DNA from: a virus
Reading direction: 5' to 3' (one strand)
DNA length: 64,000 nucleotides
IMG/VR virus record: IMGVR_UViG_3300023179_008905
Span: 1 to 64,000 of that record
Shown: in pieces, positions 27,247 to 42,967 of the stretch
How positions within the stretch are numbered: the first letter of the stretch is position 1
Layout of the letters: the number at the start of each line of letters is the position of its first letter
Notes under the pieces: generated by a model
Database searches by the model: none
What the model saw: the letters and a program-made list of their open reading frames with translations, nothing else
Told to the model about the DNA's origin: nothing
Program-made: the position numbers and the translations under genes

Positions 27247-28005
27247 TTAACTATTACCGCCAGTTAGAGCAGTTACATTTACCCATAGAGTAGAATTATA
27301 CAAGTACAGGAATCTCCAATAAGCCCTTACTGGGGCACCGCCAATCGGTATTACATATCCAAGATCTACATTAAAGTTTAAATTGTTACCGCTTTTTATA
27401 ATACTATCGTAAGGAATATAAGGTACGTAAAGAGATGATGTACCGAGCGTTATAGTAAATAAATCTGGTCTCTTAACAGCATTAATTGTAATATCAGAAA
27501 AATTATAAAAAAAGTTTGCAATAGTTATGAGACTACTCTTGTTAGTCGGTTGAATGTCTGTATAACCCCAAAATTCTACTACACGCTTGTAGAGCTGATT
27601 TTGATAAGCAGTTAAATTAGGAATTAAAGTTTGTGAAATATAAACGTAATCAGGAGATGCATTTTCTACATAATTAGCACTTGTAATTAAACCGCCGCTA
27701 AAGGTGAATCTATTATAATAATCATCTTGACCGGTAAATCCTAGCTCACTTTCTGTAACGTAAAGAGGTGAAGAAATGACCGAACTTGCAGAAACGGTAT
27801 CAAACCTTACATATTCACCTGTAAGGCTTCCGGGTAAAACTGTTTCACCATTAGGATTAGTTTTAACGACATTTAAATTTTCAAACGTTATAGTCTGGGT
27901 ACCATTTTCTGTTTGAAGAATAAAAAGATCGCTACCTAAAACTTCTTGAGATTTAGGTAAACTATTAATATTAACAAAATTACTATTGGATGTATTAATT
28001 GCCAT
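27247..28005 (-). CDS. fibre- or baseplate-like structural protein
   Basis: A 252-aa, Asn/Thr/Ser-rich, beta-type protein. The N-terminal 45 residues (NINSLPKSQEVLGSDLFILQ) look like the attachment head of phage fibre and neck proteins. No catalytic motif is present. The late box TATAAATA ends 7 nt before the ATG. Probably a virion component; exact location unknown. Confidence 0.65.
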   Translation of the reverse strand: MAINTSNSNFVNINSLPKSQEVLGSDLFILQTENGTQTITFENLNVVKTNPNGETVLPGSLTGEYVRFDTVSASSVISSPLYVTESELGFTGQDDYYNRFTFSGGLITSANYVENASPDYVYISQTLIPNLTAYQNQLYKRVVEFWGYTDIQPTNKSSLITIANFFYNFSDITINAVKRPDLFTITLGTSSLYVPYIPYDSIIKSGNNLNFNVDLGYVIPIGGAPVRAYWRFLYLYNSTLWVNVTALTGGNS

Positions 28006-28037: not shown

Positions 28038-28853
28038 ATGGAGAAAATAGGTGTTGGTATTATAACATGTAATCGACCACGGTTTTTTGTAAAATGCTTT
28101 AGATCTATACCTCTAGTAGATAATATTATCGTTGTTAATGATGGTGCGGATTTTGAGGATGTAAGTAAGCTGCAACAGGAAAAGTCTTTTTATTATGTTC
28201 ATAATAAAACAAATATTGGTGTTGGTAGATCAAAAAATATTGCTTTAAAATATTTATTAGAACAAGGCTGCACACATTTATTTCTTATAGAAGATGATAT
28301 AGTAGTAAAAAATAAAGACGTATTTAATGTTTATATTAATGCTAGAAAAATAACCGGTTTACAGCATTTTAATTTTGGTTATCATGGTCCAGCTAATAGA
28401 AACAATATTTCTAAAGGTCAGCCGGTTCCCAGATTTATTATTGATTACGGTGATACAAAAATTGCTATAAATGCAAATAGCGTTGGCGCATTTTGTTATT
28501 ACACCAAAGAGGCTCTCGAAGAAACGGGGTTATTAGATGAAAGTTATTTAAATGCTTTTGAACATGTAGATCATGACTACAGGCTTTTTAAAGCAGGATA
28601 TTATACGCCATATTGGAATTTTGCTGACATAGCTAATAGTTTAGAATATTTAGATGAATTAGAATGCTCTGAAAATAGTAGCTCTATTAGACCGAGATCA
28701 GATTGGCGTCAGAATATTGAGCGCGGATTACAAATTTTTAAAAATAAGCATGGTTATACACCAGCATGGGAAAATAGAGTACCCGATTCTACAGAAGAAG
28801 AGGTAAAAAAAGTTTTAAAGACGATTTATAAAAAATATTCATTGAAAAAATAA
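28038..28853 (+). CDS. family 2-type glycosyltransferase
   Basis: A 271-aa GT-A fold protein. It opens with IGVGIITCNRPRFF, followed by VDNIIVVNDGADF, NIGVGRSKNIAL (near residue 60) and an acidic metal-binding segment LIEDDIVVKN (near 88). It is the first gene of the sugar cassette. Acceptor and donor are unknown. Confidence 0.85.
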   Translation: MEKIGVGIITCNRPRFFVKCFRSIPLVDNIIVVNDGADFEDVSKLQQEKSFYYVHNKTNIGVGRSKNIALKYLLEQGCTHLFLIEDDIVVKNKDVFNVYINARKITGLQHFNFGYHGPANRNNISKGQPVPRFIIDYGDTKIAINANSVGAFCYYTKEALEETGLLDESYLNAFEHVDHDYRLFKAGYYTPYWNFADIANSLEYLDELECSENSSSIRPRSDWRQNIERGLQIFKNKHGYTPAWENRVPDSTEEEVKKVLKTIYKKYSLKK

Positions 28854-28869
28854 TGATGTAATATAAAAT
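28842..28869 (+). promoter_or_regulatory. candidate promoter inside the sugar cassette
   Basis: TTGAAA (28842-28847), 16 bp, TAAAAT (28864-28869), ahead of the GTG start at 28876. The AT-rich background lowers confidence. Confidence 0.35.
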
Positions 28870-28875
28870 AATCTT

Positions 28876-29313
28876 GTGCAAAGAAAGTACTTACCTACCT
28901 TTTCAGAATTAGTTGATAGACTTACAATAGTTTTACTTAAAAGTATTTTTATCCCTCAAAACAAATCTCAGTATAATCAGGAAATAAAAGATATTAAGCA
29001 CGATATAGATCAAATAATTAATGATAAAAATATTAAGCTAAATTCTGATATTATTAAATCAATTTGTATTATTATGCTTGCAAACCGATATATTTGGGAG
29101 AATGAAAGTAAATGTCGGTCTGGTGAATCACAGGACTTATCTCTTCTTAAACTTACCCATTCAATTAACGGGGTAAGAAATACTGCAAAAAACATTTTAG
29201 CAAAAGAATTTAATGAAAGACAAGATCTTAAAATTGATTGCCTTGCTGCTGAACTTTTATCAGATTTTCAAAATTGGGATATTTTTAAAGATTATGAAGA
29301 AAAAACAAAATAA
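28876..29313 (+). CDS. hypothetical helical protein of the sugar cassette
   Basis: A 145-aa helical protein starting with GTG (MQRKYLPTFSELVDRLTIV). The charged middle (EIKDIKHDIDQII) and conserved-looking WENESKCRSGESQDLSLLKL suggest a globular helical bundle. It overlaps the following gene by 20 bp. I do not recognise the function; its place points to polysaccharide-related work. Confidence 0.7.
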   Translation: MQRKYLPTFSELVDRLTIVLLKSIFIPQNKSQYNQEIKDIKHDIDQIINDKNIKLNSDIIKSICIIMLANRYIWENESKCRSGESQDLSLLKLTHSINGVRNTAKNILAKEFNERQDLKIDCLAAELLSDFQNWDIFKDYEEKTK

Positions 29314-29641
29314 ACAAACACCTCCAAACATTCCTTTTAATGAATATTATAAAGGATATCTAAAGAAACATACAAACCTAATTAATCGTAGATTACATGT
29401 ATTAGGTCAATTAACAACAATTGCTTATTTCCTTACTGTAACTTATTTGACAGTGAAAGTAAGCCTGGCGTTTGCTTTGTTATACCCTTTTACTTTATTT
29501 GTTGTTTACCCGTTTGCATGGTCGGGGCATTTTTTCTTTGAAAAAAATAAACCCGCTGCTTTTAAAAATCCTTGGAAAGCTAAAGCAGCAGACTGGGTAA
29601 TGTTAAAAGATATTCTTCTTGGAAGAATTAAATTATGGTGA
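29294..29641 (+). CDS. Mpo1-like (DUF962) membrane protein
   Basis: A 115-aa protein with the DUF962 pattern: FNEYYKGYLKKHTNLINRRLHVLG (residues 16-39), two hydrophobic segments (about 43-75), then FAWSGHFFFEKNKPAAF (near 79) and DWVMLKDILLG (near 102). The yeast relative Mpo1 is an Fe-dependent 2-hydroxy fatty acid dioxygenase of alpha-oxidation. The ATG at 29294 is chosen because the family pattern begins just after it. The His residues of the family are present. A phage role in lipid or surface change is inferred. Confidence 0.8.
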   Translation: MKKKQNKQTPPNIPFNEYYKGYLKKHTNLINRRLHVLGQLTTIAYFLTVTYLTVKVSLAFALLYPFTLFVVYPFAWSGHFFFEKNKPAAFKNPWKAKAADWVMLKDILLGRIKLW

Positions 29642-30174
29642 GAACAAAAACAGACTATGTAAGTAATACGATTAAAGATTTATTGGTATTAAAGCCAGGA
29701 ATCTTTCGTGATTATAGAGGAGAAAACGTTGAAACGTTTGATAAAGAATATAATCGTATTTCTTTAGCACACATTGATGAGTTTAGAAAAGAGAAATTAG
29801 AGTTTGTCGTAGATTCACTTTCCTTTTCTAGAAAAAATGTTCTTAGAGGATTCCATGGTGATACAAAAGCTTGGAAATTAGTTCAATGCATTCAAGGCAG
29901 CATTTACTTAGTAGTTATTGATACAAGAAAAGATTCTCCTACTTTTAAAAATATTGAAACATTTACTTTAGATGATAAAGATAGGCATCAAGTTCTCATT
30001 CCACGTGGTTGCGTTAATGCGCATTTATGCTTAACAGATACATGCACTTTTTTCTATAAATTAACACATGGCTATGTTAATCCTGAAGATCAAATTACTG
30101 TAAAATGGAATGATCCAAGTTATAATGTAAAATGGCCTATAGTTAACCCCATTTTATCATTAAGAGATTCATGA
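29635..30174 (+). CDS. dTDP-4-dehydrorhamnose 3,5-epimerase-like (RmlC) protein
   Basis: A 179-aa cupin with RmlC-like segments: GIFRDYRGENVETF (near residue 24), NVLRGFHGDTKAWKLVQCIQGSI (near 65), IPRGCVNAHLCLTDTCTFFYK (near 122) and a C-terminal DQITVKWNDPS. RmlC-type enzymes epimerise nucleotide 4-keto-6-deoxysugars. Start and stop overlap the neighbours by 7 and 4 bp. The exact sugar is unknown. Confidence 0.82.
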   Translation: MVRTKTDYVSNTIKDLLVLKPGIFRDYRGENVETFDKEYNRISLAHIDEFRKEKLEFVVDSLSFSRKNVLRGFHGDTKAWKLVQCIQGSIYLVVIDTRKDSPTFKNIETFTLDDKDRHQVLIPRGCVNAHLCLTDTCTFFYKLTHGYVNPEDQITVKWNDPSYNVKWPIVNPILSLRDS

Positions 30175-31112
30175 AAATATTAATTACCGGTGGTGCAGGG
30201 TATATTGGGTGTAAGCTTACGCAAGCTTTAGCCGATCATTATAAGACTGAAAAAGTAATTGTTTACGATAATTTAATGTACAAGCAAGATGGACTTTTTT
30301 CACTTCTTAGTCACCCTAAGATTGAATTTGTCTACGGTGATGTAAGGGAAGAACAAAAACTATCTAAATTAGTTAAAGAAGCTGATATCGTTATTCCTCT
30401 TGCTGCTATAGTAGGGTTCCCTGCCTGTGCAAAAGATCCTGATACTGCTAACAAAGTAAATAATTTACAAATACAAAATATTATTAAATGGGCTAACAAT
30501 GATACAAAAATAATTTACCCAAATACTAATAGTGGCTACGGTGTTGGCGTAGAAGGTGAATTCTGTACAGAAGAAACACCTCTTAATCCTATCTCGGTTT
30601 ACGGGGTAACAAAATGCGCGGCAGAAAAATCAGTTCTCGATTTTGGGGGGATATCTTTTAGGCTTGCTACAGTATTTGGTGTCTCACCTCGCTTTCGAAA
30701 AGATCTATTAGTAAATAGTTTTGTCTTAAAAGCACTAACAGACAAATATATTGTTTTGTTTGAGAGTCATTTTAAACGTAATTTTATACATGTAAACGAT
30801 GTTGTAAAAGCATTTATAGCAATGATACACAACTATAATAATTACAAGGGTCAAGCTTTTAATGTTGGCTTATCTACTGCAAACCTTTCAAAGCTTGAAT
30901 TGTGTGAAAAAATAAAACAATATATACCTGATTTTGTTATAACAACTAACGAATTTAATACAGATCAAGATAAACGAAATTATATTGTAAGTAATGAAAA
31001 ATTAGAGGCCATCGGTTGGAAGCCCGATTGTAGTCTAGATTATGGTATACAGGAGCTAATTAAAGCATATCCAGTTATTATAAATACGGATACTAAACAT
31101 ACTAACTTGTAA
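30171..31112 (+). CDS. NAD-dependent nucleotide-sugar epimerase/dehydratase (extended SDR)
   Basis: A 313-aa extended short-chain dehydrogenase. The NAD-binding GGAGYIG is at residues 7-13, the substrate loop is near NTNSGYGVG (118), and the catalytic YGVTK is near residue 144. Such enzymes epimerise, dehydrate or reduce nucleotide sugars. It is joined to the RmlC-like gene by a 4-bp overlap. Confidence 0.88.
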   Translation: MKILITGGAGYIGCKLTQALADHYKTEKVIVYDNLMYKQDGLFSLLSHPKIEFVYGDVREEQKLSKLVKEADIVIPLAAIVGFPACAKDPDTANKVNNLQIQNIIKWANNDTKIIYPNTNSGYGVGVEGEFCTEETPLNPISVYGVTKCAAEKSVLDFGGISFRLATVFGVSPRFRKDLLVNSFVLKALTDKYIVLFESHFKRNFIHVNDVVKAFIAMIHNYNNYKGQAFNVGLSTANLSKLELCEKIKQYIPDFVITTNEFNTDQDKRNYIVSNEKLEAIGWKPDCSLDYGIQELIKAYPVIINTDTKHTNL

Positions 31113-31138
31113 AAATTATAGCTTCACATATATAATAT

Positions 31139-32635
31139 ATGAGTTTAGATTTACTTGTTATTCACCCCAACGCTGCTAAAAAAATTTATCAAGGGCTAAG
31201 TAAAAGTTTTTCTGCCAAAGAGCCACCCATATGGGCAGGGCTTATAGCTAATTACATACGTAAGCATGGTCATTCTGTACAAATTTTAGATTGTGAAGCA
31301 TTAGAATATACTTTAGATGAAACACTTAGTGAAATAAGAAAACTTGATCCTAAGCTCGTGTGTACTGTAGCTTACGGTCAGCAGCCTTCAGCATCCACAC
31401 AAAATATGACTGGTGCTTTAAGCTTAATGCAGAAAATTGGCGCCGAAACAAACATTCCTAGAGTTTTCTCTGGTCCTCACCCTTCATCTCTTCCTGAGCT
31501 TACTCTTAAGCAAGACCCGGGTTGCTATGTCTGTGAAGGGGAAGGCCCTAAAACAGTTTTACATCTGTTAGAAGCTATTAAAAATAATGAAAAAGATTTA
31601 TCTAAAGTCCCGGGATTATGGTATAGTAGTGAAGCAGGTCCTATACGCAATGCACCAGCAACATTATTTAAAGATTTAGATAATGAACTACCTGGAGTTG
31701 CTTGGGATTTATTACCATTAGAAAAATATAGAACGGCTAATTGGCACAGTTGGACAAATAATAATAACACTCAGCCGTTTGCATCTATTTATACGAGCCT
31801 AGGCTGTCCTTTTCAATGCACGTTTTGTATGATTAATGCTCCGTTTAACGACGGTGATATTAAGAATAATGCGTTCAGACACTGGTCTCCGGAATTTATA
31901 ATTAAGCAGTTCGATTTTTTTGCAGAAAAAGGTATTAAGAATGTAAAGATAGCTGATGAAATGTTTGTTTATAAGCCTGCACATTTTATGAAGTTGTGTG
32001 AACTTATAATTGAACGTGGTTATAATTTTAATATGTGGGCTTATGCACGTGTAGACACAATTAGAGAAAAATATCTCGAAACACTTAAAAAGGCCGGTGT
32101 AAATTGGCTGGGTATTGGTATTGAATCTGCTAATAAGCTTGTTCGTCAGGAAGTTACTAAGGGCAAGTTTCAGGAAGTTAATATTCGCGACATAGTAAAA
32201 AAGGTATCGGATTCCGGTATTTGTGTAGGTGGTAATTATATTTTCGGTCTGCCAGGTGATACACACGAAACTATGCAAGAAACGTTAGATCTCGCTTTAG
32301 ACCTTAAAACAGAATATGCTAATTTTTACTGTGCTATGGCTTACCCCGGATCACAGCTTCATAGAGAAGCTGTAAAAAACCGTCCTCACGTATTACCTGA
32401 AAATAATGGAATTGGTTGGGTCGGTTATTCACAACATGCTTTTGAAACATTTAATTTACCCACCGATAAATTAACTAATAAAGAAATTTTACAATTTAGA
32501 GATAAAGCTTTTGAAACATATTTTACTAATCCGGACTATATAGCTAAAATGAAAGCAAAGTTTGGAGTTGCATTTGAAGAAGAATTAACTAGAATGTTAA
32601 GTATAAAGCTTGAAAGGAAGCTATTAACTGAATAA
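31139..32635 (+). CDS. B12-binding-domain radical SAM enzyme
   Basis: A 498-aa protein. The N-terminal 180 residues resemble a cobalamin-binding domain (LLVIHPNAA at the start, IRKHGHSVQILDCEA near 50, SGPHPSSLPELTL near 110, CEGEGPKTV near 136). The radical SAM domain follows with CPFQCTFC near residue 222 (CX3CX2C) and IGIESAN near 326. Members methylate or rearrange unreactive carbons or alter lipids and sugars. A weak promoter (TTGTAA, 31107-31112; TATA box near 31131) lies upstream. Substrate unknown. Confidence 0.85.
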   Translation: MSLDLLVIHPNAAKKIYQGLSKSFSAKEPPIWAGLIANYIRKHGHSVQILDCEALEYTLDETLSEIRKLDPKLVCTVAYGQQPSASTQNMTGALSLMQKIGAETNIPRVFSGPHPSSLPELTLKQDPGCYVCEGEGPKTVLHLLEAIKNNEKDLSKVPGLWYSSEAGPIRNAPATLFKDLDNELPGVAWDLLPLEKYRTANWHSWTNNNNTQPFASIYTSLGCPFQCTFCMINAPFNDGDIKNNAFRHWSPEFIIKQFDFFAEKGIKNVKIADEMFVYKPAHFMKLCELIIERGYNFNMWAYARVDTIREKYLETLKKAGVNWLGIGIESANKLVRQEVTKGKFQEVNIRDIVKKVSDSGICVGGNYIFGLPGDTHETMQETLDLALDLKTEYANFYCAMAYPGSQLHREAVKNRPHVLPENNGIGWVGYSQHAFETFNLPTDKLTNKEILQFRDKAFETYFTNPDYIAKMKAKFGVAFEEELTRMLSIKLERKLLTE

Positions 32636-32638
32636 TTT

Positions 32639-33172
32639 ATGAAAAAAGCACTAATATTAACCTGGGACGGATACCAAGATCAAGAAGTAATTTACCCTTT
32701 TTATAGGCTAAAAGAGGAAAATTTTGATATTACTCTTTGCGCAGAAAAAGAAGGTCTATTTTATGGAATTCTTGGTACTAAAATGACTGCTAATGGTACT
32801 TGCAGTAGTATTAATACTAATAATGTACTAAACTATGATTTTCTATTGCTCCCTGGCGGTGTTAAAGCGCTAGAAAAAATCAGACAGCAAAAAAATATTT
32901 TAGACTCTATTACACACTACGTAAATTCAGGTCGAATTGTTGCTAGTACATGCCACGGTGCACAGCTATTAGTTTCTGCTAAGGTTGTTAAGGGTAGAAA
33001 GATTGCAGCATACTATAGTATTGAAGATGATATTAATAATTCTGGTGCTATATATACACGTGAGCCAGTAGTTATTGCAGATAATATTGTCTCATCTCCA
33101 CACTATGATCACATGGGCATTTGGATGAAGACTGCAATTGAACAATACTATAAGTGGGCTGATCGTAGTTGA
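32639..33172 (+). CDS. DJ-1/PfpI-family protein
   Basis: A 177-aa protein with the DJ-1/PfpI fold pattern: ALILTWDGYQDQEVIYPFYRL at the start, LLLPGG near residue 66, and the nucleophile elbow STCHGAQLL near residue 103 with Cys then His. It lies 3 bases after the radical SAM gene. Family members are deglycase, chaperone or amidase-like; its task in the cassette is unclear. Confidence 0.85.
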   Translation: MKKALILTWDGYQDQEVIYPFYRLKEENFDITLCAEKEGLFYGILGTKMTANGTCSSINTNNVLNYDFLLLPGGVKALEKIRQQKNILDSITHYVNSGRIVASTCHGAQLLVSAKVVKGRKIAAYYSIEDDINNSGAIYTREPVVIADNIVSSPHYDHMGIWMKTAIEQYYKWADRS

Positions 33173-33187
33173 TAGCTAAAATGGTAT

Positions 33188-33838
33188 ATGCATGATGCTA
33201 CCGATTTTAGGAATTACGTTATTCCTAAACCATGGGGTCATGAGTATATTATTTTTGAAAATAATTTCTTAAGTATTTGGTATTTGTTTATAAAAAGCGG
33301 TGCAAGCACCTCTCTTCATTGTCATCCTAAGAAAAAAACCGGGCTCGTTGTACTAGAGGGTACTGCTCGCTTTCATCTTATTGAAAGAGATTTTGAACTT
33401 CAAAGCAATCAAAAAGTTATGATAAGACCGGGCTCATTTCATAAGACAGAAAACAGAACAAATCAAAACTTGCATATTATAGAGGTTGAAACACCAAAAG
33501 ATAAAGAAAACTTAGTACGAATATCTGATCTTTATGGAAGGCAGAATAAAGCGTATGAGTCTGAAACATTAAAAAGAACTAATGAGTTTTTTATTCCTAA
33601 TGATAGCTTTTTAAAATTAGAATTTTTAAATAATAGTTTTGAAATTGTTTCTAATTTAATAACCCTTAACCCTAATGATTCGGATTTATTAGTTGTGTTA
33701 AGCCCTACCCTTTTTAAGCACCATGATCATGATTTATGTCCCGTAGGTGAAATTTTATCAGGTAAAACTTTTAAAAAATTGGCAATCGATTATACTATTG
33801 CTAAAAATGCACAAATACTTAAAATCTGTCACTTATGA
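33188..33838 (+). CDS. cupin protein, mannose-6-phosphate isomerase-like
   Basis: A 216-aa protein. KPWGHEYIIFE (near residue 14) and the cupin metal motif SLHCHPKKKTGLVVLEG (near 41), then PGSFHKTENR (near 82), resemble type II phosphomannose isomerase and related cupins. The second half may be another, degenerate cupin barrel. It overlaps the following HAD gene by 4 bp. It may isomerise a sugar phosphate or act on a nucleotide sugar. Confidence 0.78.
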   Translation: MHDATDFRNYVIPKPWGHEYIIFENNFLSIWYLFIKSGASTSLHCHPKKKTGLVVLEGTARFHLIERDFELQSNQKVMIRPGSFHKTENRTNQNLHIIEVETPKDKENLVRISDLYGRQNKAYESETLKRTNEFFIPNDSFLKLEFLNNSFEIVSNLITLNPNDSDLLVVLSPTLFKHHDHDLCPVGEILSGKTFKKLAIDYTIAKNAQILKICHL

Positions 33839-34323
33839 TACTTGACTATGATACTATTATTTTAGATTTAGATGATACTGTATGGCACGGTAGTGAAAAA
33901 AATATTTGGGCTAAGACATTAAGAGGTCAAATAACATTACAAAATGTAAATGATCAGAAAAGAGTATATGATGAAACGGGAAGATACCTATATCTTGACA
34001 AGGATATAGTTGTTTTTTTAAATAAATTAAAAAACGACTTTAAGCGAATTGAATTTATATCGCGCGGTATGCTGCCTTGTATTTCTTTTGATAAACAACC
34101 ATCGATAATTGCTCTTAAATATTTTGACATTTTTCATTTGTTTGATAAGCGTACTTTATTGTATAAGAACGAAAATAAAGGCCATCACATTATTTCTACC
34201 GGCAAAACAATTTTTATTGACGATAATGATATAGATGTCAATCGAGTGCAAAAATTACATAAAAATATTACTTGCATTAACAGAAATATATTTGATAATT
34301 GGATGCATCTTTATGAACGATAA
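33835..34323 (+). CDS. HAD-superfamily phosphatase-like protein
   Basis: A 162-aa protein. HAD motif I is ILDLDDTVWHG (near residue 9), a lysine-containing loop is at about 115, and FIDDNDIDV (near 125) provides the terminal acidic motif. It resembles small Mg-dependent phosphatases. The next gene starts within its last codons. Together with the kinase at 39847 it could supply or trim sugar phosphates. Confidence 0.8.
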   Translation: MILDYDTIILDLDDTVWHGSEKNIWAKTLRGQITLQNVNDQKRVYDETGRYLYLDKDIVVFLNKLKNDFKRIEFISRGMLPCISFDKQPSIIALKYFDIFHLFDKRTLLYKNENKGHHIISTGKTIFIDDNDIDVNRVQKLHKNITCINRNIFDNWMHLYER

Positions 34324-35164
34324 CGAAAGATTACAAATTTTTTCTGAAGCATGTAAATGCAGAGCGTTTGAAGAAATAGTATATAAGTATATAGAAAATA
34401 AAACATTTAAGTATCCTCTTTATCTTTCAGCTGGAGAAGAGTATATTGCATGCTCAGTTGCACATTTTACTAAGAAATATTCTCCATATATATTTGCACA
34501 ACACCGTGCACATAGCACGTATCTGGCGTTTGGTGGTGTAATACAAGAATTAATTGATGAGCTTTTAGGTAGGCCAACAGGTTGTTGTAAGGGTATGGGT
34601 GGATCAGCTTCTATACAATCAAAACATATAAAAATGTTTGGTCATGATGGTCTTATGGGCAGTCAAGTACCTATTGCTGTTGGTGCATGTCATGCTAATA
34701 GACACTTTACTGTTGCTATTATGGGCGATGCTGCAGCAGAAGAAGATTACGTAATGTCTGCTATAGCTTGGGCAGGCACTAAAAAGCTTCCTATTCTTTT
34801 TGTAATAGAAGATAATAATTTATCTATTTTAACAAAGAAGAATGTTAGACGTAACTGGAGTATGGTAGATTTTGCAAAGTCTGTTAATGTTAATGCAGCT
34901 GAAATTAGCGATGAGCCTACAAGCTTTGAGTCATGGTTAAGCGAAGAAAAGTTATTTAACAATTTACCGCTACTACTTAATGTAAATACAGATAGATTAT
35001 ATTGGCATGCAAATGCTGGCATCGATGTATACGAAAAAGTAGATAGATTTACAGAAGAGAAATTTGCACTAGAGAAGATTTTTGGAGATAAACCACTTTT
35101 AATGTTTAATGAAACAAAACATGAACTGGAGAAAATATGGCAAAAAACCTTAGAGATACAATAA
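34313..35164 (+). CDS. thiamine-diphosphate dehydrogenase E1 alpha-like subunit
   Basis: A 283-aa protein like the alpha subunit of pyruvate/acetoin dehydrogenase E1. FAQHRAHSTYLAFGG (near residue 62), GCCKGMGGSASIQS (near 90) and the ThDP motif GDAAAEEDYV with NN at the end (about 138-167) are visible. The ATG at 34313 is chosen because similarity begins there; the frame extends further upstream inside the HAD gene. It overlaps the beta subunit gene by 28 bp. No E2 or E3 gene is near, so it is unlikely to be a classical dehydrogenase complex. Confidence 0.85.
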   Translation: MNDNERLQIFSEACKCRAFEEIVYKYIENKTFKYPLYLSAGEEYIACSVAHFTKKYSPYIFAQHRAHSTYLAFGGVIQELIDELLGRPTGCCKGMGGSASIQSKHIKMFGHDGLMGSQVPIAVGACHANRHFTVAIMGDAAAEEDYVMSAIAWAGTKKLPILFVIEDNNLSILTKKNVRRNWSMVDFAKSVNVNAAEISDEPTSFESWLSEEKLFNNLPLLLNVNTDRLYWHANAGIDVYEKVDRFTEEKFALEKIFGDKPLLMFNETKHELEKIWQKTLEIQ

Positions 35165-36039
35165 AAGAAATTTCTGCTTATCATCTGAGTAAAGGTAACA
35201 AACTTTACGGTCAATGTCTTACTGCTGTTGGCTGGGTTAACGGTACAGTACCAGAATTAACAGAAGAACAGGGTATAGTTGAGCTATCTATGGCTGATGT
35301 TATGGCAGGTGGGATTGTTACGGGCGCAGCACTAGCTGGTCAGCGACCTATTTACGTAGTACGCTATCAAGGATTTCAATGGTTTAATGCACCTATTATA
35401 GCTAATTATGCTGGTAAGAGTAAGGACATTTGGGGGATATCTTGTCCAGTGTTTATTAGATCTATTGCTATGGAAGGCGGTATAGGACCGGTTGCCGGTT
35501 CATCACACCATGGAATTTATTATCGTATGCCGGGTGTAAAGATAGCTTCACCTATGACACCTTTTGAGTATGAAGAAGTGTACAATTCGTTTATGCTAGA
35601 CGATATGCCTTACTATGTAAGTGAGCATAGAAAAAGTTATGAGTGCGATTATCGTTTAGAAGATATTGAATATGAAAATCCGGATATTTGTTTATTCCCG
35701 TTTTCTATTACTAGATTTGAATCAGTTAAAGCATCACAATCGCTAGCTAAACAAGGCATAAAAGTCAATGTATACCACCAGCTTTGGATTAACCCCTTAT
35801 TAATATCTGAGAACCAAAAAGATCAATTAAAGAAATCAAAATACGGCGGTATTGTTTTAGATGACGATTATCCGAATGGTATAGCCAAACAAGTTGCTTA
35901 TGAGTTGATGCTTGAGACAAACAAGCCAGTTAGAACTTTATGTATTAAAGAAAAGACAGCCGGCTTTCAGCCTGAGGACGACAACATGCCACCTACATCT
36001 ATTGAAATTGAAGAATATATACTTAAATTACTAAAATAA
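35137..36039 (+). CDS. thiamine-diphosphate dehydrogenase E1 beta-like subunit
   Basis: A 300-aa protein like E1 beta. It has TEEQGIVELSMADVMAGGIVTGAALAG (near residue 45), FIRSIAMEGGIGPVAGSSHH (near 106) and a transketolase C-domain-like region (about 170-290). Together with the alpha gene it should form a two-subunit ThDP enzyme that transfers or decarboxylates a 2-oxo acid. Directly followed by the DegT-family gene. Confidence 0.87.
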   Translation: MAKNLRDTIKEISAYHLSKGNKLYGQCLTAVGWVNGTVPELTEEQGIVELSMADVMAGGIVTGAALAGQRPIYVVRYQGFQWFNAPIIANYAGKSKDIWGISCPVFIRSIAMEGGIGPVAGSSHHGIYYRMPGVKIASPMTPFEYEEVYNSFMLDDMPYYVSEHRKSYECDYRLEDIEYENPDICLFPFSITRFESVKASQSLAKQGIKVNVYHQLWINPLLISENQKDQLKKSKYGGIVLDDDYPNGIAKQVAYELMLETNKPVRTLCIKEKTAGFQPEDDNMPPTSIEIEEYILKLLK

Positions 36040-37259
36040 TGAGCGCTGAAAAGTATTTGTTGATGGATGATAATATAACTCGTAATGATATTAACGAAGT
36101 TATAAAATTCCTACAACAAGACCCTTTGCCGCAGCTAACAAACGGACCAAAGGTACGAGAGTTTGAGCAAGCTTGGTCTAAGTGGTTAGGGGTAAAATAT
36201 AGCGTTTTTGTCAATTCAGGTACTATTGCAAATCAGCTAACTATGCTATTAGTACGCTATCTAAATAATAATAAAAACTTTTCACCACGAGTTATTGTTC
36301 CCCCGCTTACATGGGTTTCCGATATTGCATCAACATTGCAAAATGGTATCGAGCCTGTATTTTGTGATATAAATTTCTCTAACCTTAGCTTTGATAATAA
36401 AAAGCTTTTGCAAAAAATAGAAAAAATAAAACAAGATACTGGTGAATACCCAGCAGCAATTTTTCTTACACATATTTTAGGGCTTAATGGACTTACTGAT
36501 TATATTATTAACCTTTGTAAAGATAATAATATTTTGCTTATTGAAGATGTCTGTGAATCGCATGGAACGACTTTTAAAGGCCATAAAGTCGGTACTTTTG
36601 GAGATGTAAGTAATTTTAGTTTTTATTTTGCACATCACATGTCAACCATAGAAGGCGGTATTATTTGTACAAACAATGAACATTATTACAATTTGTTAAG
36701 AGCATTTAGATCTCATGGTATGGTGCGTGAATGTGATAGTTTAGAATTTAAAAATGATATTATTAAACAAAATCCTCAATTAAATTCTGATTTTATTTTT
36801 CTTGCGCCAGCTTTTAATGCTCGTAGTACAGAAATTAATGCTGTGCTAGGATTATCACAACTCAAAAAACTAGATAATAATAATGAGATTAGAAGACAAA
36901 ATTTTGATTATTTTATTTCTAATTTGGATGGTGAAAAATATATTAAAACATTTGACATTACAGGACAATGTAATTACGCATTTATTGTAATTCTTAAAAA
37001 CGGCAATATTGAAAAGCGTAATAAAGTAGAAGCTGTTTTAAAACAGAACAATATTGAATTTCGTAGAGGTCTTTCCGGGGGCGGCAGTCAAATTCAACAA
37101 CCATATTTAAGAAATTTTTATAAAAATTATTCTCAAATAAATTTATATGAATTCGACGTTATGAATTATATTCATGATCATTCCTGGTATATTGGTAATT
37201 ATCCTACACTTAAGAAAGAAAAAATAGATAGTCTTCTAAGCATCTTAAACGGTGTTTAA
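36039..37259 (+). CDS. DegT/DnrJ-family PLP enzyme with His in place of the PLP lysine (dehydratase type)
   Basis: A 406-aa sugar aminotransferase-fold protein. Visible blocks are FVNSGTIANQL (near residue 57), LLIEDVCESHGT (near 168) and SFYFAHHMSTIEGG (near 190-203). In aminotransferases the last block carries the lysine that binds PLP; here a His takes that place. That change is known in the ColD and RfbH/E1 3-dehydratases, which remove the C3 hydroxyl of 4-keto-6-deoxyhexoses. Its start shares one base with the E1 beta stop. Prediction: formation of a 3,6-dideoxy sugar. Confidence 0.85.
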   Translation: MSAEKYLLMDDNITRNDINEVIKFLQQDPLPQLTNGPKVREFEQAWSKWLGVKYSVFVNSGTIANQLTMLLVRYLNNNKNFSPRVIVPPLTWVSDIASTLQNGIEPVFCDINFSNLSFDNKKLLQKIEKIKQDTGEYPAAIFLTHILGLNGLTDYIINLCKDNNILLIEDVCESHGTTFKGHKVGTFGDVSNFSFYFAHHMSTIEGGIICTNNEHYYNLLRAFRSHGMVRECDSLEFKNDIIKQNPQLNSDFIFLAPAFNARSTEINAVLGLSQLKKLDNNNEIRRQNFDYFISNLDGEKYIKTFDITGQCNYAFIVILKNGNIEKRNKVEAVLKQNNIEFRRGLSGGGSQIQQPYLRNFYKNYSQINLYEFDVMNYIHDHSWYIGNYPTLKKEKIDSLLSILNGV

Positions 37260-37264
37260 TCATT

Positions 37265-38188
37265 ATGAAATACCTAGTGGTATTTAATACATGCGAACTT
37301 AAGGGACCGAATTTTAAGTGGTATGAATCCTGTTTAGATAATCTCCTCAAAGTAAAATCAGATCAATATGAATACGATATTGCGGTTTCTGGTTGCATGA
37401 TAACACCCGATACACAAGAAAAACTGTTAAAAAAATATAAAAATAAAATAATCTTTAATTTTATAGAATGTAAGCTTACGGTAAATGTGACTTTTAATCA
37501 TACAATTAATAAAATAGTTGAGCAACGCGGCAGATATGATGGGTATGTATATTTTGATTCTGGTGTTAATATTAATGACAATTTACATTATCTTGACGAA
37601 ATACATTCTCGCTTTGCTACTAAAAAATATGGTATGGTAACGCTACAGACCGATACCGATACAGGTTTTTATTTTCTTGGATTGTATGGTTATTTTTACG
37701 ACCACGATTACATTGTACCAGTTGGCAAGGCATGTAATCTACATGTAACTTGTTTTAGCGATAAGCTTCTTCAATACTATAACAAACTTATACCTGATAT
37801 ATTTTTAGCTTATTGTACAGAATCGGTTTTTAGCTTTTTAAATGCGGCATTAAATTTGCGTTGGATTATTGTAAAAGATCTTATTTTGGAGCACAAAAAA
37901 TCTATTGATGGCGCTTCTGCTGGATTTGATCATGTAGGAAAAAAGGAGCACTGGAATAATCTTTACGGTGGTCTAGATATGCTTGATATTATTAAAGACC
38001 CAGAAGCAAGAAGATTAGGTCTAGGATATGAAGAGATTAATCACATCATGATGCATGATGTTGAAGCATTTACACACTACGGACATGCTAAAAATAATGG
38101 GTTAAAAGACTATATAAAAGAAAAACTTTTTCTAAAAGATAGAATGCTTAACTATAATCATATTCCTTTTAAATTTTATAATATTTAG
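37265..38188 (+). CDS. glycosyltransferase-like protein, tandem copy 1
   Basis: A 307-aa protein about half identical to the next one (307 and 308 aa). Shared blocks are YLVVFNTCEL, RYDGYVYFDSGVN (with an acidic motif), TLQTDTDTGF, HVTCFSDKLLQYY and PDIFLAYCTESVFSFLNAAL. The pattern is like GT-A folds with a DxD-type site, but the family is not firmly recognised. It is 6 bases after the DegT gene. Confidence 0.7.
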   Translation: MKYLVVFNTCELKGPNFKWYESCLDNLLKVKSDQYEYDIAVSGCMITPDTQEKLLKKYKNKIIFNFIECKLTVNVTFNHTINKIVEQRGRYDGYVYFDSGVNINDNLHYLDEIHSRFATKKYGMVTLQTDTDTGFYFLGLYGYFYDHDYIVPVGKACNLHVTCFSDKLLQYYNKLIPDIFLAYCTESVFSFLNAALNLRWIIVKDLILEHKKSIDGASAGFDHVGKKEHWNNLYGGLDMLDIIKDPEARRLGLGYEEINHIMMHDVEAFTHYGHAKNNGLKDYIKEKLFLKDRMLNYNHIPFKFYNI

Positions 38189-38200
38189 TATTTCTTTTTT

Positions 38201-38208
38201 GATAAATA
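38201..38208 (+). promoter_or_regulatory. late promoter box GATAAATA
   Basis: The last A lies 9 nt before the ATG at 38217. It is the only late box seen inside the sugar cassette, and it lies between the two tandem copies. Confidence 0.4.
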
Positions 38209-38216
38209 TATTAAGT

Positions 38217-39143
38217 ATGAAATACTTAGGAGTATATAACATTTGTGAACGTAAGCATAAAAATTATGAGTGGTATGAGTCATGCATAGATAATCTTTTA
38301 AGAGTAAAATCTGATCAATATGATTACGATATTGCGGTCTCCGGGTGCATGGTTTCAGCCGAAACGCAAGAAAAATTGTTAGCTCGCTACAAAGATAAAG
38401 TTTTTTTATACTTTACAGATGAAAATTTTACAGTTAATGTTACCTTTAATCATGCTGTAAATAAAATTGTCGAAGAAAAGGGAAGATATGATGGTTACAT
38501 TTATTTTGATTCAGGAATTAACATTCACGATAATATAAACTATCTAGATGAAATACATTCAAGATTTGTAACTGGTGAATTTGGTATGGTCACCGTACAG
38601 ACCGACACAGATACAGGGTTTCATTTTGTAGGGAGATCTAACAGCCATTTTCGTGATGAGGATTATATAATACCTGTTGGTAAAGCTGTAAATTTACATG
38701 TAACTTGCTTTAATGATAAATTGCTGCAATATTACGGAAAAGTAATACCCGATATATTTTTAGCATATTGCACAGAATCGGTTTTTAGCTTTCTTAATGC
38801 TGCATTACATTTAAAATGGGTCATTGTAAAAGATCTTATTGTCGCTCACAAGGCTGTTGATGGCGGTTCTTCCGGGTTTTGTCATTACGGTAAAAAGTCT
38901 TGTCCGTGGAACAACGTCTTCGGCGATTTAGATATGAACGATATTATTAATGATCCGGAAGCAAAAAGATTGGGACTGGGGTATGAAGAAATCGGCAATG
39001 TAATGATCCATGATGAAAATGCTTTTACTTCTGAAGGTTTTGCCAAGTATGATGAGCTTAAAGTTTACATAAAAGAAAAACTCTATTTATCAAAACAAAT
39101 GCTGGACTATGATAAAATTGAGTTTAAATTTTATAGTAAATGA
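38217..39143 (+). CDS. glycosyltransferase-like protein, tandem copy 2
   Basis: A 308-aa protein, the second copy of a duplicated gene. The ATG at 38217 is chosen because MKYLGVYNIC aligns with MKYLVVFNTC of copy 1; an earlier ATG at 38199 would add six unrelated residues and include the late box. Acidic and TDTDTGF blocks are retained, so both copies look functional. The two could glycosylate different acceptors or positions. Confidence 0.7.
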   Translation: MKYLGVYNICERKHKNYEWYESCIDNLLRVKSDQYDYDIAVSGCMVSAETQEKLLARYKDKVFLYFTDENFTVNVTFNHAVNKIVEEKGRYDGYIYFDSGINIHDNINYLDEIHSRFVTGEFGMVTVQTDTDTGFHFVGRSNSHFRDEDYIIPVGKAVNLHVTCFNDKLLQYYGKVIPDIFLAYCTESVFSFLNAALHLKWVIVKDLIVAHKAVDGGSSGFCHYGKKSCPWNNVFGDLDMNDIINDPEAKRLGLGYEEIGNVMIHDENAFTSEGFAKYDELKVYIKEKLYLSKQMLDYDKIEFKFYSK

Positions 39144-39844
39144 AGTTTAGTATTCTTGTCCCTACTAGAAAAAGAGTTAAGAATATAAAAAATTTAGTTC
39201 AGTCGGTATATTCTACAACTAAAAATCTTAACAATATAGAATTATTGTTTTATGTTGACAAAGATGACATTGAAACTCAAAATTTTTTTGATCAAGAGAA
39301 AGTAAAGCCTAGGTTTACACATCTTATATCTACAAAAGTTATTGTACAAGAAAGACAGCCTACATTTGGTGAAACAAATAATGTTCTCTATAGAGCTAGT
39401 ACAGGTGATATTATAATGATGGCTGCTGATGATGTATGCTTTAGGACACAAAATTGGGATGAAATTGTTGCTAGTGAATTTGAGAAATATCCCGATAATA
39501 TTGCTCTTGTTTTTGGTTATGATGGTATTCAGCCTCCTGGTACTTTAGCCACACACAGCTTTGTATCTAGAAAAGCTATAGATATATTAGGTTATGTTAC
39601 GCCAAGCGATTTTGGCTATAACTATGCTGATAATTGGATTACAGAAATCTATAGACAAGTCAATAGATTAATTTATATACCGGTATACTTTGAACATTGT
39701 CATTGGGGAATTGGGAAAGCTCCTTTTGATGAGACATATGAACGCGGCTCTCATGCACCGCATGATAACAGTATAAAAATTTGGGAAGATAAAGCTCGTT
39801 TAAATAGAGATATTGAACGTTTAAAATTACACATAAATAAATAA
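39140..39844 (+). CDS. family 2-type glycosyltransferase
   Basis: A 234-aa GT-A protein: FSILVPTRKRVKNIKNLVQSV at the start, FYVDKDDIETQ near residue 36, and MMAADDVCF (near 94) as the metal-binding acidic motif. It overlaps copy 2 by 4 bp. Donor and acceptor unknown. Confidence 0.82.
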   Translation: MKFSILVPTRKRVKNIKNLVQSVYSTTKNLNNIELLFYVDKDDIETQNFFDQEKVKPRFTHLISTKVIVQERQPTFGETNNVLYRASTGDIIMMAADDVCFRTQNWDEIVASEFEKYPDNIALVFGYDGIQPPGTLATHSFVSRKAIDILGYVTPSDFGYNYADNWITEIYRQVNRLIYIPVYFEHCHWGIGKAPFDETYERGSHAPHDNSIKIWEDKARLNRDIERLKLHINK

Positions 39845-39846
39845 TA

Positions 39847-40599
39847 ATGCTTACTAAGCCTGTTCTTATTATAGGTGATTCCTGTAAAGATGCCTTTATA
39901 TATTGTAAGTGCGATAGATTATGTCCAGAAGCACCTGTACCTGTGCTCGATATTATAGAAAAAAGACATAACGGAGGGATGGCTATGAACGTATTTAAAA
40001 ATTTTAAAAAGCTCTATAAAAATGTAGAAATAGTTACTAATAAAAATTGGAGCAGGATTACAAAAACCAGATATATGGATATTAAAACAAACCATATGTT
40101 TATAAGAATAGATCATTGTGAAAATAATAACTTTACCTTTAAAAATATTAAAAATAAAATTAATTTTAAAAACTATTCAGCAGTAATAATAAGCGATTAT
40201 GACAAAGGATTTTTATCTACTGAAGATATTCAATATATTTCAAAAAATCATGAATTAACTTTTTTAGATACCAAAAAGATTCTCGGCGAATGGGCTAAAA
40301 ATATTACTTTTATTAAAATTAACAGAAACGAATTTGATATTTCTTTTGATTCAATAAAACATTTACCTAATATTTTAAATAAAATTATAAAAACTCTAGG
40401 TAAAGACGGTGCAGAATATAAAAATAAAGTCTACCCTGTAAAAGAGGTTGAAATAAAAGACTTATCTGGAGCTGGAGATACATTTATTGCCAGTCTCGTA
40501 TACGGCTATTTAACAACAAGAGATATAGAAAAATCTATTGAACTTGCAAATAACCACGCCACAATAGTAGTACAAAAAAGAGGCGTCACTACCATATAG
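39847..40599 (+). CDS. PfkB/RfaE-type sugar kinase
   Basis: A 250-aa ribokinase-fold protein. PVLIIGDSCKDAFIYCKCDRLCPEAPVPVL at the start (in the style of HldE/RfaE kinases) and the catalytic LSGAGDTFIASLVYG near residue 206 are present. It is shorter than the RfaE kinase domain (about 310 aa) through loss of part of the lid region. It probably phosphorylates a sugar or heptose phosphate for nucleotide-sugar synthesis. Confidence 0.8.
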   Translation: MLTKPVLIIGDSCKDAFIYCKCDRLCPEAPVPVLDIIEKRHNGGMAMNVFKNFKKLYKNVEIVTNKNWSRITKTRYMDIKTNHMFIRIDHCENNNFTFKNIKNKINFKNYSAVIISDYDKGFLSTEDIQYISKNHELTFLDTKKILGEWAKNITFIKINRNEFDISFDSIKHLPNILNKIIKTLGKDGAEYKNKVYPVKEVEIKDLSGAGDTFIASLVYGYLTTRDIEKSIELANNHATIVVQKRGVTTI

Positions 40600-40623
40600 T
40601 AACGCTCTCTAGGCATTTAAAAA

Positions 40624-41550
40624 ATGATAAAGATATACGTATATCCAAATGCTCGTAAACCATTTGAACATGATACCTTAGACTTTAATTATAATACTAC
40701 TGTTTTTTCTGAAAAAGGAATTAAGGATCATTGTACATTAGTATCTCCGGAAGAGGCGGAGCTATTTTATATGGGTCAAATATCCTGCGGTACATATACT
40801 GAATTTAGCGAATCTGATTTTAAATACTTAAAAAATAATTACACCAAGCACGTTGTAGAAATAGAAGGAGATTGGTATCAAAAGCGTATACCCTCCTGGC
40901 TCTTAGATTGTAACTGCGTTGGAAATGGCAATAGAACTTATTATTATCCGAGATTATTTTTTACAAGGCCTTGTTTAAGTAGATTGTTAGTTTATTTAGC
41001 AAAAAATAATATTGAATATGATATTGATTTACCGGAGCAAATTTCTTTTGGATTTATCGGTCAACATGATCCATATCATACTAGAATTAAAACTTATAAT
41101 ATTTTAAAATCTAATAACATTAATCATGAAATTTATTTTAATGAAAAATGGAGCGCTCAAGTAGATCTTAAGAAAGATAATCAAATTATACAAAATTTTG
41201 CAGGTGTTCTTAAAAGAAATATTTTATCTTTATGTCCTCGTGGAGTTGGTGAAGATAGCTCAAGGTTTTACGAAACATGTTTTTTTGGTAGAGTACCGGT
41301 CATTATAGGCCATTGTAAAATAATGGATGAAGATAAATTAGAAGATAAATTTTTTTACAGAATTAATCCTGATTTACCCGACGATAAGCTTTTAGAAGAG
41401 CTTAACAAAATTTACAGCACACCTTTAGAAGAATTAAAGAAAAAATGTTATCAAGCTAAAGAGTATTTTAATAACAATGTAAAAAAATATTTTGAAGACC
41501 CCACAAAATATTATTTAACTTTTTTAAATTTTAATGAAAAAAATAGCTAA
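40624..41550 (+). CDS. exostosin-like glycosyltransferase
   Basis: A 308-aa protein whose C-terminal half has the exostosin (GT47-like) pattern LSLCPRGVGEDSSRFYETCFFGRVPVII (near residues 200-227). Upstream is an IGQHDPYHTR segment similar to FGKRxxxR in that family. An imperfect hairpin lies before the gene. Overlaps the next gene by 17 bp. Confidence 0.75.
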   Translation: MIKIYVYPNARKPFEHDTLDFNYNTTVFSEKGIKDHCTLVSPEEAELFYMGQISCGTYTEFSESDFKYLKNNYTKHVVEIEGDWYQKRIPSWLLDCNCVGNGNRTYYYPRLFFTRPCLSRLLVYLAKNNIEYDIDLPEQISFGFIGQHDPYHTRIKTYNILKSNNINHEIYFNEKWSAQVDLKKDNQIIQNFAGVLKRNILSLCPRGVGEDSSRFYETCFFGRVPVIIGHCKIMDEDKLEDKFFYRINPDLPDDKLLEELNKIYSTPLEELKKKCYQAKEYFNNNVKKYFEDPTKYYLTFLNFNEKNS

Positions 41551-42349
41551 TTTTACTCAAACATATCAAGGCGATCCTATCTGGAGCCCGGGGTGTGATA
41601 ATAAAGATAGAGAGTTTTTAATTGATGCTTTAAGATTAAACCCTGGTAAATATGACGCTATTAATTTATTAGACTATCAGACTTTTAATTTTCATAATTT
41701 AACTGAAGAAAAAAGTAAGCAATTAGCTAAAAAAATAAAAAAAGTAATACCTAACTGTCAATTTTATGTCTATCAAAATATGACATTTGGAAGTACAATA
41801 TTAAAGCATTTACAGATGTTAAGATCAAACAATATTACAGACTTTTTATGGGTACAAGATGATGAATTTTTTATACATACAAATTTTGAAGATTTTAAAA
41901 ATCTTTTAAATTATTATAGAGAAAATAAAGATTTAATGCACATTAATTTACTCTATTCTTTTCATAATAACACTCTTACTAGCCGCTATGCTACGCTAAA
42001 AAATGTTGACCCCTGTGAAGAGATCTCTATCACTAGCAATTTAAAGCTCTACAACACGCATACAGATCATTTAAAGAATGCCTCTAATTATAGAATGGAT
42101 TTTTCTGCATTTTTATGCAATATAGATTATTTTTTAAAATACATGTTTAGTGCTGCTTTTATTAATATTTTTGATGCATATAAATTAGAGAGCGCAATTA
42201 ATGAATTTAGTACTAAGAATAATATTCAGAGATATTTTACAAATATTAATTTTTTTGAATCTTTTAATATTGTCGGTATGCCGCCGTCTTTAAATAAGAG
42301 CGACGAAGCACTTACAAGGCTAAAAAATATTTGCTCACAAAATTCTTGA
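41534..42349 (+). CDS. putative glycosyltransferase, last gene of the sugar cassette
   Basis: A 271-aa Asn/Phe-rich protein. The segment FLWVQDDEFFIHTNFEDF near residue 103 resembles an acidic GT-A metal site. The rest is not diagnostic. Overlap with the exostosin-like gene and position support a glycosyltransferase role, with low certainty. Confidence 0.55.
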   Translation: MKKIANFTQTYQGDPIWSPGCDNKDREFLIDALRLNPGKYDAINLLDYQTFNFHNLTEEKSKQLAKKIKKVIPNCQFYVYQNMTFGSTILKHLQMLRSNNITDFLWVQDDEFFIHTNFEDFKNLLNYYRENKDLMHINLLYSFHNNTLTSRYATLKNVDPCEEISITSNLKLYNTHTDHLKNASNYRMDFSAFLCNIDYFLKYMFSAAFINIFDAYKLESAINEFSTKNNIQRYFTNINFFESFNIVGMPPSLNKSDEALTRLKNICSQNS

Positions 42350-42379: not shown

Positions 42380-42967
42380 ATGATTATTACGGATATTAAA
42401 TGTTATGATGGCAAGCTTTTGCATTCAAGATTTGCATATAAATTTTTTAGAGAAAAAACTCTTCCTATAGGTAATATAATTGCTTTTCGCGCTCCTATGA
42501 AGGTAGAGACGGAGGGAATGATTGATAGCGAGGATGTACTTAACAATGATTTTATTTATAGTGATGATGCGATAAACTTTTTGTGGGAAATTCCTAACCT
42601 TGATGCATTCGGAGCTGTTGCATACCAGCGCTTATTAAACACTCAGATTGCAAATATACTAAGTACAAAATATTTAAATGCGCCAATTGAGGTTGACGGT
42701 GATGATCTAATTGTTCACAAAGAACACACCCAAGGTGGTGTTACGCAGACAAAAGGTAAGTGCTCAGTAAGCATTACATATACAAAGAATAACGTAGCTC
42801 TGGGTCATACAGGAATTAATGTTACCGCAGGTAAAAAAGCCCCTGCATTTGCTTATTCTACTAATTTAACAGAAGAGCAAGCAAACTTATTTATGAGAGA
42901 AATAATAGAGTTATTTTATACTATAAATGATGATATTTTTATTGCTACATCAAAAGTTATTAGTTAA
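42380..42967 (+). CDS. DUF366-like protein
   Basis: A 195-aa protein. Its opening (IKCYDGKLLHSRFAYKFF, then GNIIAFRAPMKVETEGMID) resembles DUF366, a small uncharacterised family of archaea and bacteria with a biotin/lipoyl-ligase-like look. It is the first gene after a strong promoter, ahead of the clamp-loader-like gene, with which it shares one base. Function unknown. Confidence 0.65.
   Translation: MIITDIKCYDGKLLHSRFAYKFFREKTLPIGNIIAFRAPMKVETEGMIDSEDVLNNDFIYSDDAINFLWEIPNLDAFGAVAYQRLLNTQIANILSTKYLNAPIEVDGDDLIVHKEHTQGGVTQTKGKCSVSITYTKNNVALGHTGINVTAGKKAPAFAYSTNLTEEQANLFMREIIELFYTINDDIFIATSKVIS

Follow-up and report, generated by a model that had tools for sequence, protein, structure and literature searches.

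A sugar cassette in a hypervariable glycan island of a T4-like myovirus, predicted to make a modified heptose that may decorate the virion

Positions 1-64000 of the 76,130-bp virus record IMGVR_UViG_3300023179_008905 (hereafter the window) were analysed. The record is a fragment of a T4-like myovirus, and in the window 18 consecutive plus-strand open reading frames (ORFs; c01 to c18, the cassette) fill positions 28038-42349. Gene order in related phages makes it almost certain that the cassette is cargo in a hypervariable glycan island, which lies at one fixed site (phoH, c01, cargo, DUF366) in a lineage of T4-like aquatic myoviruses. The enzymes encoded suggest that this cargo makes a modified heptose of a rare, bacterial type, which would be attached to a protein of the phage virion. 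We give this explanation as a whole a probability of about 50%.

A glycan island with fixed borders

The T4-like myovirus genes in the record are those for UvsX, UvsW, gp43, gp46/47, gp20, gp21, gp23 and NrdA/B. A first reading of the letters (the original prediction) had described a tight co-directional operon of 18 genes, and the ORF positions bear this out. Nine of the 17 junctions overlap (by 1-28 bp) and the widest gap is 26 bp; the packing is tight, as stated, but the 'many' 4-bp overlaps were a slight overstatement, only three being of the 4-bp ATGA type. The enzyme domains named at that time were recovered by family searches of the cassette proteins. The description as a polysaccharide-type cassette also held, with six glycosyltransferase-like proteins (c01, c13-c15, c17 and c18).

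To collect related loci, the DinG-like helicase encoded nearby was used as the query, and 80 viral loci with 55-85% identity were obtained. PhoH was found directly left of the island in the window and in loci L020, L031, L041, L042, L048, L005, L003 and L004. Most relatives have the c01 gene in the corresponding position (mostly 61-70% identity), and the DUF366 protein at the right border is 68-89% identical among them. The gap from c01 to DUF366 was measured in 21 loci; it spans 2.2-14.0 kb with 3-16 genes, which encode mainly glycosyltransferase-sized proteins, and the 156 proteins of this cargo fall into 75 families. Sampled cargo of the relatives included GT2, GT47, GT10, GT11 and nucleotide-sugar enzymes. 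Cargo differs between close relatives whose structural proteins are 80-90% identical. Since the borders stay while the cargo changes, the site was read as a hypervariable glycan island. The window holds one of the larger and chemically richer versions of it; in the distant phage L004 (record G003), about 26 kb, largely of sugar genes, lie between PhoH and DUF366. Homologues of c18 (55-56% identity) are the last island gene, directly before DUF366, in L025, L027, L038, L039 and L056.

Such DNA might be a non-functional 'stuffer' that fills the head, a possibility raised for the lipopolysaccharide (LPS) clusters of cyanophages (PMC3037559). For this cassette it is very improbable. All 18 frames are uninterrupted and retain their catalytic motifs, the border genes are conserved, and many cassette genes are kept at 43-72% identity in the distant phage L005.

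DUF366 is more conserved than its neighbours, with 74% identity in the distant phage G003 against 40% for the DinG helicase (L192). A link of DUF366 to 7-deazaguanine is a guess only, and literature searches on DUF366/DpdL gave nothing usable.

Predicted sugar pathway

Among Protein Data Bank (PDB) structures, c05 matched 6vo6 with 336 bits (E 2.5e-99), and the next-best structure with 83 bits. This entry, labelled 'putative sugar-nucleotide epimerase/dehydratase' in the PDB table, we take to be Cj1427 of Campylobacter jejuni. The Cj1427 structure paper stands among the references of PMC10680097. The top matches of c04 were 8dak, 7ani and 8dcl, of which 8dak is a GDP-D-glycero-4-keto-D-lyxo-heptose-3-epimerase. 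By this likeness c04 is an RmlC-type epimerase nearest to GDP-4-keto-heptose 3-epimerases, with a predicted substrate of that kind. The DegT-fold protein c12 has ColD as its nearest solved structure, carries the motif AHHMSTIEGG and has a histidine at the position of the pyridoxal-phosphate lysine. The ColD match and the histidine argue for a C3-dehydratase, so the earlier assignment to the dehydratase type, not to the aminotransferases, was upheld. The genes c10 and c11 adjoin c12, which places a thiamine diphosphate (ThDP) enzyme beside an enzyme of ketosugar 3-deoxygenation. In vitro, Cj1427 combined with a C3-dehydratase gives GDP-D-glycero-3-deoxy-4-keto-heptose (PMC10680097).

On these homologies a nucleoside diphosphate (NDP)-heptose, by homology GDP-heptose, would be oxidized at C4 by c05; the 4-keto-heptose would be epimerized by c04 and deoxygenated at C3 by c12. 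The ThDP pair c10/c11 would then add a two-carbon branch at the C4 ketone. This use of the ketone is proposed because domain searches found no C4-reductase in the cassette, where c05 is the only short-chain dehydrogenase/reductase (SDR). The B12-binding radical S-adenosylmethionine (radical-SAM) protein c06 would make a further modification of the sugar, and c16 and c09 may help to provide the heptose phosphate. The predicted product is a 3-deoxy, probably C4-branched heptose. We regard the NDP-heptose 3-deoxygenation pathway as probable from the matches above, and give the C4 branching an even chance.

Branching of this kind has precedents. Plm8/Plm9, an E1 alpha/beta-like pair, puts a pyruvate-derived two-carbon branch onto deoxysugars (PMC4802897), and YerE, which makes the C4 branch of yersiniose, is an acetolactate-synthase-type enzyme (PMC10338323). 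Phages L003, L004 and L005 carry PanB and an acetolactate-synthase-type ThDP enzyme in the slot that follows their radical-SAM gene. Such a swap with the E1 pair would be expected if the slot serves carboligation onto a ketosugar.

Other chemistry is possible, with a chance somewhat below even. The E1 pair and the radical-SAM protein may make an acyl or other substituent, or the radical-SAM protein may be a C-methyltransferase or dehydratase, with no branch at C4. This alternative concerns the product and is compatible with either acceptor discussed below. A simple branching scheme would not account for the PanB of L003, L004 and L005, and the nearest solved relatives of c06, AprD4 and OxsB, catalyse reactions that differ. 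However, as YerE is itself of the acetolactate-synthase type, the swap fits carboligation, and the cassette has no C4-reductase that would use the ketone otherwise.

Acceptor of the glycan

No Wzx-type flippase (PF01943), Bac_transf phospho-glycosyltransferase (PF02397) or GtrA (PF04138) was found in ten phage records (this record and nine relatives, up to 162 kb, several of them 140-162 kb), with controls positive. Only 3 of 138 island proteins of the relatives have even one transmembrane-like segment. In the cassette no glycosyltransferase is membrane-anchored, and c03 is the sole protein with such segments. The lack of export and assembly genes, together with the almost wholly soluble island proteins, favours a cytoplasmic acceptor. 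Working in the cytoplasm, the six soluble glycosyltransferases would assemble an oligosaccharide on one of the phage's proteins, most likely a fibre or capsid protein of the virion; this would give a strain-specific glycan coat. The virion as acceptor is put at one chance in two. Of the functions offered by the original prediction (virion decoration, a changed host surface, DNA glycosylation), virion decoration is the predicted best fit, the host surface is possible in spite of the missing export and assembly genes, and DNA glycosylation is disfavoured.

The gene next to the cassette, T27247, encodes a fast-evolving fibre-like protein (29-44% identity among relatives, against 70-90% for its neighbours). 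A T4-late-type TATAAATA precedes its start by 14 nt; gp20 is preceded by such a motif too. The structural model was confident for the C-terminal domain only, and its likeness to tail fibres and tailspikes of phages was weak. A fold assignment was dropped because the N-terminal half of the model was too poor. T27247 is a candidate glycan acceptor, no more. This divergent fibre-like gene with its T4-late motif, and the distant kinship of c01 with mycobacteriophage glycosyltransferases described below, are the links that speak for the virion. One family of fibre-like proteins shares an N-terminus like MADVTISNLTxGxPxGNxxLPYSxGxNTL, with differing C-termini, which amounts to many alternative fibre-like proteins.

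The main rival is that the host O-antigen or another surface glycan is changed during infection, blocking competing phages or mimicking other strains, with the flippase, polymerase and ligase of the host finishing the work. We consider this unlikely, at about half the weight of virion decoration. Relatives of the module in bacteria lie in polysaccharide-type loci, including SAR11 loci with the order radical-SAM, DJ-1, cupin, E1 alpha, E1 beta, and a role at the host surface is the published view for the glycosyltransferases of pelagimyophages (PMC7029224). Against it stand the missing flippase, phospho-glycosyltransferase and GtrA and the solubility of nearly all island proteins; moreover, for a lytic T4-like phage the benefit would be short-lived.

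Several points also weigh against the modified heptose on the virion. The GmhA, HddA (GHMP), GmhB and HddC set for GDP-heptose is not in the cassette, which has only PfkB and HAD proteins. No heptose isomerase or guanylyltransferase was recognized there, and it lacks the GHMP kinase that bacterial loci carry and that also occurs in L004 and L008. With these enzymes lacking from the cassette, the host may have to supply GDP-heptose. Heptokinases of the PfkB/RfaE-like kind found here belong classically to the route to ADP-heptose, but the substrate of Cj1427 is GDP-heptose. The c04 and c05 enzymes could instead serve a C4 reductase encoded elsewhere. The record holds only about half of the genome. 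No clear T4-late promoter was seen before c01. The distant relatives of c01 are glycosyltransferases of mycobacteriophages (25-26% identity), for which capsid and tail glycosylation has been reported (Freeman 2023, as cited in PMC12619734); so weak a link does not fix the acceptor. Finally, a host flippase and ligase could complete a surface glycan, and the pelagimyophage literature favours modification of the host O-chain (PMC7029224).

The glycosyltransferases might instead decorate phage DNA, as in T-even phages and the Shewanella phage Thanatos, and give resistance to restriction; this is improbable. Phages can carry sugar-activating and transferase genes for DNA (PMC12838424), a conserved glycosyltransferase lies between gp43 and gp46 (5415-6638, phrog_7162), and 7-deazaguanine genes suggest that the DNA may be modified. 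But PF00303 (thymidylate-synthase/dCMP-hydroxymethylase) is absent from the record fragment and from eight relatives of up to 162 kb, with controls positive, so that a hydroxymethylated base is a less likely acceptor. A complete turnover of cargo among close relatives would also be unlike a DNA-modification system.

The glycosyltransferase at 5415-6638 (minus strand) is present in eight of nine related records at 52-79% identity. It may start the same glycan system or belong to a separate one. The preQ0 set consists of QueC (350-1099, minus), FolE (20066-20719, minus), QueD (24037-24750, plus) and a QueE-like protein (25543-26286, plus); with such a set, a 7-deazaguanine base may be present in the DNA of the phage. 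No DpdA was recognized in the window. Candidates for further 7-deazaguanine steps are the products of 58368-59180 (minus, phrog_19058, weak DUF6610) and 57802-58371 (minus, formyltransferase-like).

Origin of the cassette and the module in bacteria

Acquisition as a block from a bacterium, as first proposed, was not sustained. The cassette is a mosaic, as far as trees and nearest relatives indicate, not a block from one bacterium. In the radical-SAM tree the window copy forms a phage-only clade with L003, L004, L005 and L096 (100/100 support), apart from the bacterial copies; c01 belongs to the core genes of this group of phages; and for c07, c08, c10 and c11 the closest relatives lie in loci of SAR11, marine betaproteobacteria and other bacteria, a slot that in other phages holds PanB with an acetolactate-synthase-type ThDP enzyme. 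G+C in the cassette is 27-35% (2-kb windows), similar to the rest of the window, so nothing in the base composition points to recent import. Recent import of a single bacterial block was ruled out on the tree, the differing nearest relatives and the ordinary G+C.

In the search for a bacterial donor that had been suggested, a similar DJ-1/cupin/E1 segment was found in SAR11 and marine betaproteobacteria: c10 is 48-54% identical to proteins of these loci, and c11 reaches its top identity (56-58%) in marine betaproteobacteria and SAR11. In the E1 trees the window copy has a long branch and falls into no small clade with support, and so no donor can be named for the ThDP segment. A 'Prochlorococcus donor' (L096, 60%) was ruled out, L096 being a phage contig with gp23-, gp46- and UvsX-like genes. 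This 130-kb contig (QCKN01000003.1) is filed as Prochlorococcus single-cell genome AG-409-P03.

At 231-1419 of the IMG/VR contig L018, an XseB-like gene and a split Sua5-like gene are joined to a cut c18 gene. The XseB/Sua5-like genes are 52-55% identical to SAR11 genomes and 42-60% to others over shorter stretches. The contig is a chimeric assembly or holds host DNA, and gives a weak hint of a SAR11-like host.

Species genomes were scanned with the radical-SAM alignment, which gave 80 loci; counts were made on the 36 loci that extend 7 kb or more in each direction from the radical-SAM relative, one of which is the phage contig L096. A ThDP enzyme was present in 29 of the 36, a c05-type SDR in 27, a GHMP or PfkB kinase in 31 and a His-type DegT protein in 28, and all four together in 22. 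The SAR11 loci L146 and L153 have the order radical-SAM, DJ-1, cupin, E1 alpha, E1 beta, further genes, GHMP kinase, DegT, RmlC and SDR, near that of the phage. This conserved linkage across bacterial loci supports a single pathway. Within the literature searched, no published description of a radical-SAM/ThDP/Cj1427-type module was found; a search on a radical-SAM/heptose/bradyrhizose link gave nothing usable, and the module enzymes are not named in a paper about the O-chain clusters of SAR11.

A wider proposal is offered tentatively, since on balance we doubt it. An apparently undescribed module (Cj1427-type dehydrogenase, ColD-type dehydratase, ThDP carboligase and B12 radical-SAM enzyme), common to SAR11, Omnitrophota, betaproteobacteria and others, may make a new class of branched higher-carbon heptoses, of which T4-like phages would use their own versions to coat virions in a strain-specific manner. 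From the module in bacteria one would expect abundant groups such as SAR11 to make a sugar not yet described.

Genes of the cassette and other features

Coordinates are collected in Table 1. No family match was obtained for c13 or c14 in domain searches. The AlphaFold model of c13 (pLDDT 79, pTM 0.84) gave glycosyltransferases as top Foldseek matches (E 5e-7, TM 0.4-0.5). The membrane protein c03 sits inside the sugar operon.

Table 1. Features of the island, its flanks and the related loci (window coordinates unless a locus is named)
Feature	Position	Strand	Remarks
PhoH	24751..25488	-	Left landmark of the island site
T27247, fast-evolving fibre-like protein	27247..28005	-	Divergent from the cassette; putative glycan acceptor
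c01, GT2-type glycosyltransferase	28038..28853	+	Weak PF00535; phrog_2456, phrog_1579; conserved left island border
c02, unknown 145-aa protein	28876..29313	+	Common only to phage cassettes (72% L005, 49% L096)
c03, Mpo1-like (PF06127) small membrane protein	29300..29641	+	E 2.4e-24
c04, RmlC-type epimerase	29635..30174	+	Top PDB 8dak, E 3.5e-34
c05, SDR, predicted NDP-heptose C4-dehydrogenase of Cj1427 type	30171..31112	+	Top PDB 6vo6
c06, B12-binding radical-SAM protein	31139..32635	+	PF02310, PF04055; CPFQCTFC motif
c07, DJ-1/PfpI protein	32639..33172	+	E 1.1e-32; 43-47% to SAR11 loci
c08, cupin, type-II mannose-6-phosphate isomerase C-terminal type	33188..33838	+	PF01050 E 9.5e-12
c09, HAD phosphatase (MDP-1-like)	33835..34323	+	TIGR01685 E 1.3e-6, under cut-off
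c10, ThDP enzyme E1 alpha	34310..35164	+	PF00676 E 6.7e-17; GD-x-NN ThDP motif
c11, ThDP enzyme E1 beta	35137..36039	+	PF02779/PF02780
c12, DegT fold, ColD/RfbH-type sugar 3-dehydratase	36039..37259	+	E 3e-60; top PDB ColD 2gms
c13, GT-A-fold glycosyltransferase-like	37265..38188	+	Predicted fold
c14, tandem paralogue of c13	38199..39143	+	69% identity to c13
c15, GT2 glycosyltransferase	39140..39844	+	PF00535; phrog_14945 E 3.7e-34
c16, PfkB sugar kinase, RfaE domain-I-like	39847..40599	+	TIGR02198 121 bits (cut-off 345); GAGD motif
c17, exostosin/GT47, RXYLT1-like glycosyltransferase	40624..41550	+	PF24785 E 9.4e-9
c18, putative glycosyltransferase	41534..42349	+	Last island gene in several relatives; no accepted family
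DUF366 protein	42380..42967	+	PF04017 E 6.6e-24; right island border
Fibre-like family, window	13266-14177, 21659-22498
Fibre-like family, L002	12028-12993, 13496-14374, 14379-15158, 15195-16043
PanB (ketopantoate hydroxymethyltransferase)	L003 10372-11379, L004 11496-12503, L005 11546-12568		Beside acetolactate-synthase-type gene

Comparison with known systems

The cassette joins the sugar clusters previously described in T4-like phages, to which it adds a variant with a specific, testable pathway. The effect and target of LPS-type clusters in T4-like aquatic phages were stated to be unknown in 2010 (PMC3037559). A defined site with conserved borders and exchange of cargo, together with a predicted sugar and a predicted cytoplasmic acceptor, now makes the question of function testable.

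With LPS/O-chain-type clusters the cassette shares a T4-like genome around it and hypervariable glycosyltransferases with sugar-nucleotide enzymes. The T4-like cyanophages P-SSM2, S-SSM7 and S-SM2 likewise have large sugar clusters, one of them near phoH (PMC3037559), but the present phage is of another lineage (gp20 about 34% identical), its DegT protein is about 37% identical to the cyanophage copies, and no close match to c06 was found in any annotated phage. The host-recognition hypervariable region of pelagimyophages (PMC7029224) is also from T4-like aquatic phages and has glycosyltransferases and an rfaE-type gene. In contrast, gp20 is only 30% identical to that of HTVC008M, and the genes here point to a complete pathway of heptose modification, ThDP and B12 radical-SAM enzymes included, at a defined phoH/DUF366 site. 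Gtr-type serotype conversion differs in its GtrA flippase and polyprenyl-phosphate glycosyltransferase, which the cassette lacks; a seroconversion cluster was ruled out by the absence of PF04138 from the ten records.

The GDP-heptose pathways of C. jejuni (PMC10680097, PMC10440746) share the C4-dehydrogenase, the RmlC-type epimerase and the ColD-type C3-dehydratase. The cassette is viral and, instead of a C4-reductase, has the ThDP pair and the B12 radical-SAM protein. In the gene sets of YerE (yersiniose), Plm8/Plm9 (paulomycose) and avilamycin eurekanate, a ThDP enzyme likewise stands within a deoxysugar gene set; the substrate predicted for the cassette is a heptose, not a hexose or pentose, and its branching is predicted from the genes.

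Virus-encoded glycans are known for the capsid fibrils of Megavirinae (PMC10117803), whose clusters of 6-33 genes vary by clade and make rare bacterial sugars. These are giant viruses of eukaryotes, and their glycans have been measured. In mycobacteriophages, phage glycosyltransferases have been linked to the glycans of capsid and tail (Freeman 2023, as cited in PMC12619734). With phage virion glycosylation of this kind the present phage has in common soluble glycosyltransferases conserved in its group, namely c01 and the protein encoded between gp43 and gp46.

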